Shown one piece after another: positions 2,948-20,558 of a stretch of DNA of 21,191 nt. The translations under genes were made by a program, and so were the position numbers. The first letter of the stretch is position 1, and every line of letters starts with the position of its first letter. This stretch comes from a virus, in the IMG/VR virus record IMGVR_UViG_3300044845_000343, positions 1 to 21,191 of that record; one strand, 5' to 3'. A model generated the notes under the pieces. It was not told where the DNA came from. It made no database searches and saw only the letters and a list, made by a program, of their open reading frames with translations.

Positions 2948-4030
2948 TTATTTATCGAGGTGAAGCTTACACCACGACATAGCGAACTGGTCTAATTGTT
3001 TGTTCGATAGGTAGCCCATCTCTACAAAGTCCTCGACTGAACCCATAAACATTCCTGAGTTGTCGAAGTATTCCCCGAACTCATTTGCCCAGTAATCTAC
3101 CACTTTTGGATAGCCGTAATACTCTGGCTCCTGAAGTCCTTGACCGGCTGGCTTGGGCATTGACTCATCCCAGTAGAAGCTGTCTAAGTCCTCGCCATAG
3201 TAGCCGTCAAGAACCTCGGCATAGTAGTCGTTTGGCAAAAATAACGCTGGGTCATTGTTGCTTGGGACTGAGTGCCCTCCAGAGGTCATAGAACGCCAGC
3301 CACCGTATCCGCCTGAGAACTTCTCTACATACTTAGGGTCAATATCTGGCAGGGTTTCTACATTGACTAGGGCACCGTTCTCGATCGTCAGAAGTGTGCG
3401 CTCTGAGATGGTTTCTAGGTAGATGGCATCTAGCTTGGCATTGTCTAGGGCTGTAAGCAACATAGCCTCGGTCGAAGCAAATACGAACGAACCGTCAGCG
3501 AGCATAGCGATAACTAGCGGTGAATAGCTAATGCGAGCAACCTTGAGTGTAAGCCGGTCGTTGTCATCTAGCCACGCAACAGAAGCGTCGCCGTCTAGCT
3601 TGTCGAAGCTGTCGGTATTGCGCTGGAACTCCTGAAGCAACGCTGGGATAACGCTGGAATCTACTTCTGGCAAGGTGTGTGGAATCTCGCCACGAACGGT
3701 TTGGTGATTGTAGATAACGCCGTTGTGAACTAACGCAACAGAACGGTCTGGCGATAGAACTGGGTGATTGTTGGCATTGTCAGTTGTAGAGCCGTGTGTA
3801 GCGTAGCGAGTGTGTAGAACTGCTACACGACTGCCTCGGGACATTGGCTTCATAGATAGCTGTGCGCCAGCTACATCACGCTTGTAGATACCCGAGCCAG
3901 TGCTAGACTGCCACGCATAACCAGAAGCCTGATTGCCTCTTACATCCATCTCACGCAATAAAGCCTTAGCTAACTTGCGAGGTTGAATTCTTGAATTTGT
4001 TGATAATGAAAAGCCTGCGATTGAACACAT
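2948..4030 (-). CDS. Class II glutamine amidotransferase (Ntn hydrolase) with C-terminal extension
   Basis: The enzyme should hydrolyse glutamine and pass ammonia to a partner active site. The start is set at the ATG complementary to 4028-4030, because that gives Met-Cys. Class II amidotransferases use Cys2 as the N-terminal nucleophile after Met removal, whereas the upstream GTG at 4039 would bury it. GlmS-like motifs follow in order: RGNQASG (31-37), HTRYATHG (73-80), the HP of NNHP (89-90), VHNGVIYNH (101-109), VDSSVIPALL (123-132), GDAS (147-150) and FASTEAMLL (184-192). The domain ends near residue 225. About 135 further residues, rich in Tyr, Asp and Gly and unlike any sugar-isomerase or synthase domain, form the C-terminus. 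The acceptor is therefore not glucosamine or asparagine by domain content. It diverges from an amidoligase gene across the control region, so the amidoligase is the likely partner. Total length is 360 residues. Confidence 0.88.
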   Translation of the reverse strand: MCSIAGFSLSTNSRIQPRKLAKALLREMDVRGNQASGYAWQSSTGSGIYKRDVAGAQLSMKPMSRGSRVAVLHTRYATHGSTTDNANNHPVLSPDRSVALVHNGVIYNHQTVRGEIPHTLPEVDSSVIPALLQEFQRNTDSFDKLDGDASVAWLDDNDRLTLKVARISYSPLVIAMLADGSFVFASTEAMLLTALDNAKLDAIYLETISERTLLTIENGALVNVETLPDIDPKYVEKFSGGYGGWRSMTSGGHSVPSNNDPALFLPNDYYAEVLDGYYGEDLDSFYWDESMPKPAGQGLQEPEYYGYPKVVDYWANEFGEYFDNSGMFMGSVEDFVEMGYLSNKQLDQFAMSWCKLHLDK

Positions 4031-4078
4031 AACTATCACGCTCTCTTTCTTTTTTCTATGTTGAGTTGTTATATATAA

Positions 4079-4107
4079 AGTCTATTGGATAAATAAAGTT
4101 ATGTCAA
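4079..4107 (-). promoter_or_regulatory. Promoter of the glutamine amidotransferase gene
   Basis: On the minus strand a perfect -35 TTGACA (complement of 4102-4107) is followed after 17 bases by TAGACT (complement of 4079-4084), a sigma-70/SigA type promoter. Transcription starting near 4072 would leave a leader of about 42 bases with a GAGAG ribosome binding site before the ATG at 4030. Confidence 0.65.
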
Positions 4108-4123
4108 GTAAGCGACACACCGG

Positions 4124-4207
4124 AAAAAGCCTCAGTTCCGAATCGGTATTCTTGCGCCCAAGAGAGAGGTATGAGTGCTCTGTGCCCGACTCGGAACTGA
4201 AGCCGTA
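4124..4207 (-). ncRNA. Candidate structured small RNA with its own promoter and terminator
   Basis: A leftward transcript from the promoter at 4214-4242 would start near 4207 and immediately enter an inverted repeat. The arms 4186-4200 and 4132-4146 match at 14 of 15 positions, and the one mismatch can be a G-U pair. The repeat closes with a T-run (complement of 4124-4128). The 39-base interior can form two hairpins: a 5-bp stem TCTTG/CAAGA with a GGCG loop, and AGAG/CTCT. Together these would make a three-way junction of about 84 nt. No reading frame explains it and no tRNA T-loop is present. It could also be only an operator or attenuator upstream of the amidotransferase promoter. Confidence 0.4.
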
Positions 4208-4213
4208 AATACC

Positions 4214-4242
4214 AAGCTACCCCACCGACCATCAGTTGTCAA
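4214..4242 (-). promoter_or_regulatory. Second leftward TTGACA promoter, upstream of the candidate small RNA
   Basis: On the minus strand TTGACA (complement of 4237-4242) is followed after 17 bases by TAGCTT (complement of 4214-4219). The predicted start is about seven bases before the long inverted repeat, which suggests the promoter serves the structured RNA and not directly the protein gene. Confidence 0.5.
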
Positions 4243-4254
4243 GTCTATTTGTCT

Positions 4255-4376
4255 ATTTGGGAATTTGCGCTCGCTAGGCACAAGTTTGGCATTTGGGAAT
4301 TTGCGAGCGCTCGGGCACTCGCTCGATCGATTTGGGAATTTGCGCTGGCGCTGGCACCCACACGCATTTGGGAATT
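4255..4376. repeat. Four ATTTGGGAATT iterons spaced 36-39 bp
   Basis: The 11-base core ATTTGGGAATT occurs perfectly at 4255-4265, 4291-4301, 4330-4340 and 4366-4376, so start-to-start distances are 36, 39 and 36. Each core is followed by a related GC-rich tail (TGCGCTCGCT, TGCGAGCGCT, TGCGCTGGCG and a diverged fourth copy) ending in GGCAC. The full unit is thus about 30 bp. Such iterons are typical binding sites for a replication initiator or repressor. No initiator gene is in the window. Confidence 0.75.
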
Positions 4377-4414
4377 CGGGCGAACGCTGGCACCCACGCA
4401 GGGGCAGAATAACG

Positions 4415-4495
4415 CTGAGAGTTTCCTGAGAGTTTCCTGAGAACGATTAGGCAGCTCAAACCCTGAGAGATTCCTGAGAGATTCCTGAGAGTTAG
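4415..4495. repeat. Six 11-bp CTGAGAG repeats at helical spacing, in two triplets
   Basis: Units begin at 4415, 4426 and 4437 (CTGAGAGTTTC twice, then a partial copy CTGAGAACG) and at 4463, 4474 and 4485 (CTGAGAGATTC twice, then CTGAGAGTTAG). Every step inside a triplet is exactly 11 bp, about one DNA turn, so a bound protein would see all three copies on one face. The triplets are 48 bp apart from start to start. The array lies between the iterons and the C-rich tract. Confidence 0.75.
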
Positions 4496-4503
4496 CTGTT
4501 AGG

Positions 4504-4557
4504 ACATTTGTTCGACTAAAGCAGCCTAAAATCGCAGATCGAAAATCGAACAAGTGT
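4504..4557. repeat. 12-bp inverted repeat in the control region
   Basis: ACATTTGTTCGA at 4504-4515 and TCGAACAAGTGT at 4546-4557 are inverted copies with one mismatch, 30 bases apart. It may be an operator or part of the same putative origin. No U-run follows, so it is not a terminator. Confidence 0.4.
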
Positions 4558-4786
4558 TCGACCCCTGCCCGACCCCGACAGATTCCCCGACCCCGACCCG
4601 ACCAAAACCGCCCAAAAGGGCAGACCCTCCAGAACGCCACAGAACGCCCACAGAAGCCACAGACCCCCGAAACCGCCCGACACTATGCCCGACCCCTGAA
4701 AACCCCCCTAGCGAGGTAATTGCGGAAACCTACAAAAAAAGCCCGAAAAGTTTGGAACGACACGCCGAGGAAAAAAGGTGCCAAGA
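4558..4786. other. C-rich non-coding tract
   Basis: This stretch is dominated by C on the plus strand, with the motif CCCGACCCC or close variants repeated (around 4567-4600 and 4676-4698) and further repeats of AGAACGCCACAG type near 4631-4660. A 102-codon GTG-started frame crosses it but encodes only Pro/Thr/Arg-rich low-complexity protein without a ribosome binding site, so no gene is called. The strand asymmetry begins here and continues into the amidoligase gene. Confidence 0.5.
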
Positions 4787-4787
4787 C

Positions 4788-4817
4788 TTGACAAGGCTAT
4801 GTCTAATGGTGTTGAAT
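4788..4817 (+). promoter_or_regulatory. Candidate promoter of the amidoligase gene
   Basis: A perfect TTGACA at 4788-4793 is followed after 18 bases by TTGAAT at 4812-4817, a fair -10. A start near 4824 would give a leader of about 43 bases containing the purine-rich AGAGAGAGAG run before the ATG at 4867. The -35 is strong and the -10 less certain. Confidence 0.45.
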
Positions 4818-4866
4818 AGAACCAAGGCAAAAGCCCCGACACACCAAGAGAGAGAGAGCTAAAAAG

Positions 4867-5721
4867 ATGACCGCTTACAACAGCACCCGCGAACAGGCAG
4901 AAGCAACCGCGCAACAGTTCGCCGATTACGCAAGGGAGCTAGAAAGCGCAACACCGCAAACCCTGAAAAGGACTTGGGGCTTCGAGATTGAAACCCCCGA
5001 CGCCGACATAATCGCCAACCGACTAAGCCACGCCGAGGGGAGAGTTATAGATTGTAAACAGGACGGAAGCGTTACGGGAGGCAACCAAGAATGTGATTGT
5101 GATTGCCGTTCTTGTGTCTACCATGATTGTAATTGCGACAATTGCGAGGACAACAACGACGGAGAGCCAGAGCACGATTGCGGGAACTCGGAGTGTATGG
5201 GACAGTATCAGGAGCTAACCTCAATTGGAGGACTAGACACCACACACCCCGAAGCCTTAGACATACTCACCCGCTATGGCTTGGAGAATTGCGACATCAA
5301 CGAAAGTTGCGGGCTTCATGTTCATGTCTGGGCAGGGGACTTGACCCCCTTACAGGTCGCACGAGTCCTCACCATTTACCGCCTAAGCCAAGACACAATG
5401 AACACGCTGGCAGGGCGCTCTGGTGTCTACTACGCCCAGAACAACCCAACCGAACACGAGGACGCCACACGATTGGGACACAACCCAGACGGGCGCAAAT
5501 ATTGGGCCGTCAATGTGAACCCCTATTTCAACTACCTAAACAACGGGACAGGCGTGCCAACGATTGAGTTTAGGCAACACGAGGGAACCAACGACACCAG
5601 CCGAGTAAGGGCATGGGCTCGCCTAATGGTTGCTATCTTGGACTACGCCAAAACAGACCGCCCCTTGTATTGGATAGGCAAAGCAACCGACTTGAGGGAA
5701 TTGCTGACCGCCCTAATCTAG
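4867..5721 (+). CDS. Amidoligase (COOH-NH2 ligase family, Amidoligase_2-like) with Cys-rich insert
   Basis: A predicted ATP-dependent ligase joining a carboxyl to an amine. The 284-residue protein shows the family's motifs in order: GFEIET (38-43), DGS (66-68), QELTSI (115-120), CGLHVHV (148-154) and TIEFRQHEGT (232-241). Acidic and His residues in these blocks form the metal-ATP site in this glutamine-synthetase-like fold. Between DGS and QELTS lies an insert (about residues 76-110) with nine cysteines, including CxCxC, CxxC and DCNCDNC, which probably binds zinc. The family is known to co-occur with class II glutamine amidotransferases, and one lies divergently at 2948-4030. The peptide or wall substrate cannot be read from the sequence. 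The start has an AGAGAGAG purine run upstream. A terminator follows within 15 bases, so the gene is monocistronic. Its coding strand is notably C-rich. Confidence 0.82.
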   Translation: MTAYNSTREQAEATAQQFADYARELESATPQTLKRTWGFEIETPDADIIANRLSHAEGRVIDCKQDGSVTGGNQECDCDCRSCVYHDCNCDNCEDNNDGEPEHDCGNSECMGQYQELTSIGGLDTTHPEALDILTRYGLENCDINESCGLHVHVWAGDLTPLQVARVLTIYRLSQDTMNTLAGRSGVYYAQNNPTEHEDATRLGHNPDGRKYWAVNVNPYFNYLNNGTGVPTIEFRQHEGTNDTSRVRAWARLMVAILDYAKTDRPLYWIGKATDLRELLTALI

Positions 5722-5735
5722 CCCCAGACCGCCAG

Positions 5736-5771
5736 AGGGCGAGAGCGCAACCCCTAGCCTCTCGCCCTTTT
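5736..5771 (+). terminator. Intrinsic terminator after the amidoligase gene
   Basis: A perfect 10-bp stem AGGGCGAGAG (5736-5745) and CTCTCGCCCT (5759-5768) with a 13-base loop is followed by a short T-run (to 5771). It begins 15 bases after the amidoligase stop codon. Confidence 0.75.
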
Positions 5772-5880
5772 GGCACACCCAACCAAAGAAATCACTTTAT
5801 TGGTAATTTTTTAGCTCGTAACGAGTCTAGGAACCGTATGAGTTCAATCGCCAAAATCAGCCATTTAGGACCACCCCCCT

Positions 5881-5893
5881 TATAATAAGAAAC
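5881..5893 (+). promoter_or_regulatory. Consensus -10 box giving a leaderless start
   Basis: A perfect TATAAT at 5881-5886 is seven bases from the ATG at 5894, and there is no Shine-Dalgarno sequence. RNA initiated at normal distance would begin at the start codon itself. No clear -35 is present. It opens the rightward packaging operon. Confidence 0.6.
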
Positions 5894-6106
5894 ATGAAGT
5901 TCATTGTCAAAATGTGGGGGAGCGATCCCTTGATTTTTGACATCCGACTTTTTGATGGAGTAGACCGGGATGGCATAAATGTCTACATCTGCAGAGTCAA
6001 CAACGCAACATTTTATTTCGAGTCGAAAGCAGACGATGAAGTCTGGACCATCCTCGACAACGCAATCTTTGCACTAAAAGAATTCAGACAAAAAGAGGCG
6101 AGCTAA
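5894..6106 (+). CDS. Hypothetical protein opening the rightward operon
   Basis: A 70-residue protein beginning MKFIVKMWGSDPLIFD, with no recognised domain. It is probably a small alpha/beta protein: beta-like hydrophobic stretches in the first half and a helix at the end (WTILDNAIFALKEF). The start is chosen because a perfect TATAAT lies seven bases upstream, which fits leaderless initiation. It is the first gene of the packaging operon, two bases before the next gene, so it may serve terminase function or be unrelated cargo. Function is unknown. Confidence 0.65.
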   Translation: MKFIVKMWGSDPLIFDIRLFDGVDRDGINVYICRVNNATFYFESKADDEVWTILDNAIFALKEFRQKEAS

Positions 6107-6108
6107 AA

Positions 6109-6309
6109 ATGGCAGACTCAAAAAATTTCGCCACACAATTTTTGACCAAACCAGCATCAAGCAGATCACTCACCGACCCTGTGCCCGAAGAAGAACCTGC
6201 AGAGGAAACCGAACTGCCAACGCCTCAGTTAATGATTGACAGCCTGTACCAGATTCTGATGAAGCGCCTTGATGAGATCGAAGAAAAGATTGACAAACTA
6301 AATGGGTAA
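6109..6309 (+). CDS. Small coiled-coil protein upstream of the terminase genes
   Basis: A 66-residue protein with a disordered N-terminal half rich in Ser, Pro and Glu (PEEEPAEETELP) and a C-terminal helix (IDSLYQILMKRLDEIEEKIDKL) with the heptad spacing of a coiled coil. It starts two bases after the preceding stop and overlaps the small-terminase-like gene by eight bases, so translation is coupled. Small acidic coiled-coil proteins are common beside phage terminases, but I do not recognise a named family. A regulatory or oligomerisation role in packaging is conjecture. Confidence 0.65.
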   Translation: MADSKNFATQFLTKPASSRSLTDPVPEEEPAEETELPTPQLMIDSLYQILMKRLDEIEEKIDKLNG

Positions 6310-13333: not shown

Positions 13334-14730
<1,397 letters not shown>

Positions 14731-14731
<1 letters not shown>

Positions 14732-20033: not shown

Positions 20034-20558
20034 ATGCAAACGCTGGAAAGAATTTGCATCACTTGTAAGACCCTAAAGCCTTTCACGGATTTTCATAAAA
20101 ACAAGCTCACCAAAGAGGGTGTGACTAATAAATGTAAGGTTTGCAAAAATGAAGCCTCACGAATTAGATATGAAAAAAATGGCGCAAAAATGCGAGACCA
20201 AATGGCAACACAAAGAAAAGAAAATTACGAGCACAGAATAGAAATAGAGCGAGCCTCCAGATCTAGGCGAAAAGAGTTCCAAAGACCCCTTAAAAACGCT
20301 AGGCAGCAAATTCGCAATAGGTTGCTAGAGGCCAAACCCTTTGCCCTGAACAGCAAAGAAATTGCTAAGCTTTATGAAAAGCCTTGCTACAACTGCGGAA
20401 CATTTGAGAACCTTTCAATTGATCACATTGTGCCCTTGGCGCTAGGTGGCTCACACAGTATTGGTAATTTGATGACCCTATGCAGGAAGTGCAATGCTTC
20501 CAAGGGTAAAAAGCTACTGATACAATGGAAAATGTACTTAAAGAAAGTAGGTAACTAA
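20034..20558 (+). CDS. HNH endonuclease (free-standing, homing-type candidate)
   Basis: A 174-residue protein. The N-terminus has a zinc knuckle CITC (Cys8/Cys11) and CKVC (around 34-37). The middle is a basic helical linker rich in Arg and Lys. The C-terminal HNH domain has CYNC (about 117-120), DHIVPLALGGSHSIGNLM (catalytic His after Asp, then Asn) and LCRKCNASKGK. It would cut DNA using a single metal ion. It sits among fibre genes rather than near terminase, typical of a mobile homing endonuclease rather than a packaging HNH. An AAAGG sequence precedes the ATG. The next gene begins one base after its stop and lacks a normal start codon. Confidence 0.88.
   Translation: MQTLERICITCKTLKPFTDFHKNKLTKEGVTNKCKVCKNEASRIRYEKNGAKMRDQMATQRKENYEHRIEIERASRSRRKEFQRPLKNARQQIRNRLLEAKPFALNSKEIAKLYEKPCYNCGTFENLSIDHIVPLALGGSHSIGNLMTLCRKCNASKGKKLLIQWKMYLKKVGN

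Follow-up and report, generated by a model that had tools for sequence, protein, structure and literature searches.

The stretch of DNA analysed here, called the window in the following, is a complete IMG/VR record of 21,191 bases (IMGVR_UViG_3300044845_000343) and carries a gene for a class II glutamine amidotransferase and a gene for an amidoligase, which are transcribed away from each other and are separated by an intergenic region of 836 bp (positions 4031-4866; Table 1). Both genes are also present at 100% identity on a larger record of 42,818 bases (L001/G001). As the portal and the terminase are nearest to those of Clavibacter, Arthrobacter and Microbacterium phages (about 40% identity), the window phage is presumably a virus of Actinobacteria. 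A preliminary description of the window had placed both enzymes at this locus in divergent orientation, with a shared control region between them and outside the normal structural gene set. All of this could be confirmed: both genes lie where they had been located, by family neither of them belongs to the virion genes, those for packaging and head follow the amidoligase gene from about position 6302, and the intergenic region is far from random sequence.

Table 1: Features of the amidotransferase and amidoligase locus in the window, with positions counted from its first base.
Feature	Position	Strand	Basis
Class II glutamine amidotransferase (N-terminal nucleophile (Ntn) glutaminase), 360 residues	2948-4030	-	Pfam, 46-sequence alignment, AlphaFold2 (AF2) model, Foldseek
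Promoter-like site for the amidotransferase gene, TTGACA-17-TAGACT, 10/12	4079-4107	-	Consensus scan
18-bp inverted repeat, 89% complementary, 39 nucleotides apart, upstream of the amidotransferase gene	4129-4203		Repeat search
Four iteron-like repeats ATTTGGGAATTYGSGC, starts at 4255, 4291, 4330 and 4366	4255-4400	+	Repeat search
Repeats CCTGAGAG(T/A)TT, 11-bp spacing	4411-4501	+	Repeat search, 12 relatives
TCGAACAAGTGTTCGA, perfect match to the LexA box TCGAAC-N4-GTTCGA	4546-4561		Actinobacterial consensus
Amidoligase_2 (PF12224) COOH-NH2 ligase, 284 residues	4867-5721	+	Pfam, 41-sequence alignment, AF2, Foldseek
Cys/His-rich insert in the amidoligase, residues 76-110	5092-5196	+	CxCxCx2Cx4HxCxCx2C...HxC...C, alignment
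Intrinsic terminator directly 3' of the amidoligase gene	5731-5774	+	Hairpin and T-run, -30.8 kcal/mol, z -8.5

The two enzymes

The open reading frame listed for the amidotransferase starts with a GTG at 4039 (363 residues), and the ATG at 4030 gives the protein of 360 residues beginning with MCSIAGF, which has a cysteine at position 2. In Pfam the protein matches GATase_6 (PF13522) with 71.8 bits (cut-off 27) and GATase_7 with 53.9 bits. Nine residues (C2, R31, G32, H73, R75, T78, N103, G104 and D124) are invariant in 46 aligned sequences, and the profile of the amidotransferase aligns with the GlmS glutaminase across the motifs of the glutamine site (HTR.AT.G, HNG and D). The AF2 model (predicted local distance difference test, pLDDT, 83.7) is confident for residues 1-235, which form the glutaminase domain, and it matches the GlmS glutaminase 1xff in Foldseek with an E-value of 1e-15. 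A phmmer search of the PDB with the single sequence at E 1e-10 gave no match, whereas the profile search did. GlmS models cover the glutaminase part only (74 bits versus a cut-off of 418), and past this domain neither Pfam nor NCBIfam gave a match and the C-terminal isomerase (SIS) domains of GlmS were not found, so that a GlmS-type role was ruled out. In the model a linker of low confidence follows (residues ~252-300, with very low values for 252-287), and the C-terminus (~310-360) is a small segment of moderate confidence whose sequence varies across the family. Judged by its residues and predicted fold, the amidotransferase is an intact class II glutaminase without isomerase domain, just as the preliminary description had it from Cys2, the GlmS-like motifs and the lack of a synthase or isomerase partner domain.

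The amidoligase scores 36.9 bits for PF12224 (cut-off 22), and the motifs GFEIET, CGLHVHV and TIEFRQHEGT from which it had been recognized at first are present in its translation. Across an alignment of 41 amidoligases, E40, E42, D66, G149, H151, E234 and R236 are invariant. For the AF2 model (pLDDT 88.4, predicted TM-score (pTM) 0.86) the best PDB matches found by Foldseek are glutamine synthetases (E 1e-3, probability 0.93) and YbdK (probability 0.90). Since the TM-scores of these matches are low, they are suggestive of a glutamine synthetase-like fold. A sequence link to YbdK from E. coli was considered and dropped, as the profile comparison with hhalign was not significant.

Between two core strands the window amidoligase carries an insert with nine cysteines and two histidines (CDCDCRSCVYHDCNCDNC...HDCGNSEC). 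C78, C80, C83, C93 and C105 are found in 37 of the 41 aligned amidoligases, namely in the window and 36 relatives, and the four exceptions are distant; the amidoligases of Arthrobacter, Alcaligenes and Bacillus phages in the alignment are without the insert. From the arrangement of its cysteines and histidines, the insert is probably a zinc cluster; AF2 confidence is low in this part and AF2 places no metal. There are also long-form amidoligases (500-630 residues; L022-L049), which have about 230 extra residues ahead of the ligase core.

Conserved pairing and relation to known phage cassettes

Using the amidotransferase as query we collected 62 loci from IMG/VR. A profile search showed that the amidoligase adjoins the amidotransferase in 55 of them, and in L030 and L039 an amidoligase frame beside the amidotransferase runs off the contig edge, which gives a pair in 57 of 57 testable loci. 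In the other five the amidotransferase lies within a few hundred bases of the contig end and too little flank is present. The reciprocal search from three different amidoligases led to 16 loci, all of them on contigs of the amidotransferase list. Furthermore, the two genes are adjacent on the same strand in Arthrobacter phages, in the Pseudomonas phage PaP3 and in an Alcaligenes phage. With 57 paired loci and 16 reciprocal ones on the same contigs, neither of the contrary patterns named in the preliminary description, lone genes or an amidotransferase beside a different synthetase, was found. As the pair is adjacent in all testable loci, is recovered by the reciprocal search and occurs in unrelated phages, the two proteins are very probably functional partners, and the last two of these observations rule out chance neighbours. 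A host-derived gene pair was also considered, and two short-pattern scans of 84,980 bacterial and archaeal genomes, whose reach is limited to close relatives, revealed no relative.

A putative peptidoglycan modification module or cassette has been described in RIO-1-like and LUZ24-like phages (PMC5498523, PMC11945000, PMC3890496). It is present in RIO-1, PSA-HP1, PaP3, LUZ24 and phiEco32, and according to PMC5498523 and PMC10580990 it was predicted by Iyer et al. 2009. In PSA-HP1 it is transcribed immediately after infection (PMC7082346). In the phages MEP401 and MEP402 of OM43, PF12224 and PF13522 genes have been reported together, with no function and no further partners (PMC10580990). The association of both families in predicted peptide or wall modification systems, from which the preliminary description had started, is thus on record (PMC5498523, PMC10580990), and the novelty implied by its term "candidate" system has to be given up as such a cassette has already been described in phages.

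Like this cassette, the window has a class II amidotransferase and an Amidoligase_2 protein encoded next to each other and away from the structural genes. In contrast to it, the clade to which the window belongs (window clade) has two genes only, which diverge from a repeat-rich region, and an amidoligase with the Cys/His-rich insert. A gamma-glutamyl cyclotransferase was detected in none of 35 window-clade records, whereas 12 of 13 other records were positive, and a second COOH-NH2 ligase (PF14395) was found in none of 24 window-clade records, with PaP3 and the Alcaligenes phage scoring in the same search. ATP-grasp (PF08443) was likewise detected in none of 24 window-clade records, an absence that is not firm because the positive controls also scored below the cut-off and the search is insensitive. 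Many of the window-clade records in these searches are fragments; G010 and G044, which have the same 127-bp repeat at both ends in the manner of complete circular assemblies, are also without cyclotransferase and COOH-NH2 ligase.

Among actinophages, the pairs of the Arthrobacter phages Salgado (gp98/gp99), Laroye and Ottawa (gp65/gp66) resemble the window in that the amidoligase adjoins the amidotransferase, and the glutaminase parts of window and Arthrobacter phage amidotransferases show 31-35% identity. They differ from the window in having both genes on the same strand, a cyclotransferase upstream and an amidoligase without the cysteine insert. The OM43 phage pairs share with the window the joint occurrence of PF12224 and PF13522, a likeness that is taken from their published description. 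The window pair is therefore a known kind of cassette, of which the reduced two-gene form, the probable metal-binding insert and the unusual control region are new details.

The intergenic region and the transcription units

Throughout the window clade the gap between the divergent genes measures 0.3-1.2 kb, and it contains repeats as well as DnaA-box and LexA-box sequences. The sequence TTTGGGAATT has 33 exact copies in these regions of 12 nonredundant relatives (shuffle mean 0.2), compared to two in the other 463 kb of these loci. Scanning the collection with a longer repeat form gave ten stretches, nine of them on known window-clade contigs and one on a new contig, L094, which begins within the interval and whose amidoligase adjoins the repeat. 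Next to the perfect LexA-box match a degenerate copy is located at 4500-4515. The LexA box of Streptomyces venezuelae has been described as tCGAAC-N4-GNNCGa (PMC9380542), and within 760 bases upstream of the amidoligase 37 nonredundant loci contain 12 exact CGAACN4GTTCG sites, which equal this box. In 200 dinucleotide shuffles the mean number of such sites was 0.02 and the highest was 1. DnaA-box sequences (TTATCCACA or TTGTCCACA) were observed 20 times in relatives against a shuffle mean of 0.9, mostly in loci without the other repeats. All these locus counts ignore relatedness, and the comparison with shuffles speaks for non-randomness and not for a number of independent origins. In all six contigs for which the cumulative GC skew was determined, its minimum is found about 1-4 kb away from the interval, a position that could be explained by the divergence of transcription alone. 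Taken together, the repeats, the LexA and DnaA boxes and the GC skew suggest that the intergenic region is a candidate replication origin combined with a repressor operator of the SOS type. Candidate regions of this kind are located at 4031-4866 in the window, at 6980-7970 in L064 and upstream of the amidoligase in L002-L020 and L043-L048. It appears rather doubtful to us, however, that the two divergent genes of a zinc-cluster amide synthetase flank an origin here, with the amidoligase under the control of host LexA or a phage mimic, by which an activity on wall or peptide would be induced by the host's response to DNA damage.

The promoter-like site in front of the amidotransferase gene is weak, since such sites are no more numerous in the region than in shuffles. 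Behind the same gene, ~2823-2922 contains the inverted repeat TGGGTCAAATA...TATTTGACCCA together with a palindrome-like stretch rich in A and T, and L064 has comparable repeated ATTTGATTC / ATTCGATTC sites in the same place (~5610-5660 and 5795-5895). These downstream repeats are perhaps a second early-gene operator. In Arthrobacter phage Ottawa the coding sequence of the amidotransferase itself contains a perfect TCGAACTGGTGTTCGA (L065:6614-6629). A temperate phage with classical immunity was considered and set aside, as no tyrosine integrase was found in 25 records (serine integrases and repressors were not searched for).

On the other side of the locus the amidoligase gene is followed by the strong terminator listed in Table 1. 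A hairpin is present behind the amidoligase of L064 as well (-32.3 kcal/mol, z -7.2), and most short-form relatives have hairpins of different sequence at most 100 nucleotides past the amidoligase stop codon. As the terminator separates it from the packaging genes, the amidoligase gene probably forms its own transcript and does not open the packaging operon, which weakens the role in late regulation that had been suggested for the pair.

Proposed activity and alternatives

The ammonia that class II amidotransferases set free serves a partner synthase, and glutamine synthetase-like amidoligases form amides using ATP. We propose with moderate confidence that the window pair is a minimal two-protein glutamine-dependent amide synthetase, which would most likely act on a carboxylate of the peptidoglycan stem peptide or its precursor. 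The N-terminal cysteine of the amidotransferase would hydrolyse glutamine and the resulting ammonia, or less likely another amine, would pass to the amidoligase, which would activate the carboxylate with ATP in its glutamine synthetase-like site and form the amide. The wall of the infected cell might thereby be changed, for example against competing phages or for lysis timing. This working principle may be likened to that of MurT/GatD, which we take to belong to different protein families from the window pair on both sides; no homology is claimed. In the bacterial wall amidation by MurT/GatD (PMC3267633) the glutaminase and the ATP-using ligase are also two separate proteins, and the likeness is one of principle only. 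As the clade lacks the cyclotransferase and the COOH-NH2 ligase and the search for ATP-grasp was negative, a simple amidation fits better than the multi-step amino acid addition proposed for the seven-gene cassettes, and because of the cassette context a wall precursor is our best guess for the target.

Several points weigh against this proposal. The literature on phage amidoligases, as surveyed, reports no biochemistry, no solved structure is related to the amidoligase by sequence, and its fold matches are weak (E 1e-3 to 2e-2, TM 0.33-0.36). Moreover, with divergent promoters the amounts of amidotransferase and amidoligase may differ, and the sequence holds nothing that points to peptidoglycan as substrate.

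It could also be that the pair modifies an intracellular protein or peptide, from the host machinery or the virion, and amidates or adds to its carboxylates for take-over or counter-defence. The Cys/His-rich insert could bind a macromolecule, and phage ATP-grasp ligases have been discussed as modifiers of host proteins (PMC7824862), but there is no target candidate and the only solid context is the wall modification cassette, which has both enzymes, so we consider this unlikely. Even less probable is an auxiliary module of nitrogen metabolism, in which the enzymes would serve phage growth by transferring glutamine nitrogen to amino acids or gamma-glutamyl compounds, without modifying a polymer: the window clade lacks the cyclotransferase that belongs to such a scheme, a GATase freeing ammonia from glutamine is not the same as nitrogen assimilation, and the published evidence is a growth effect with no enzyme work. 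That both genes act independently and are neighbours merely as they flank a central control region (an origin or an early-late switch) would agree with their divergence in the window clade, 0.3-1.2 kb apart with repeats, DnaA-box and LexA-box sites in between, but is very improbable, as unrelated phages have the pair side by side on one strand and lack such a region. A role in DNA-base modification was also considered and nothing points to it.

A remodelling of the host wall by phage amidoligase cassettes was predicted more than ten years ago and we found no biochemical test of this in the literature surveyed, one reason being that the versions described so far comprise five to seven genes. 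With only two proteins left, the window clade defines the smallest unit that is worth purifying, and a close equivalent of the pair, which can be deleted in the laboratory, is present in cultured Arthrobacter phages. The enrichment of LexA and DnaA boxes beside the amidoligase gene also provides a testable link of an accessory enzyme with SOS-type control and a probable phage origin.

Elsewhere in the window, DUF1281 or Api92-like proteins are encoded near the amidotransferase at 162-731 (DUF1281_C, 45.7 bits) and 2110-2580 (weak match only). The tail region includes a long collagen-like protein with Gly-X-Y repeats (13334-14731), and a gene of the HNH or endonuclease VII-like type (20034-20558) is located among tail-fibre and collagen-like genes.

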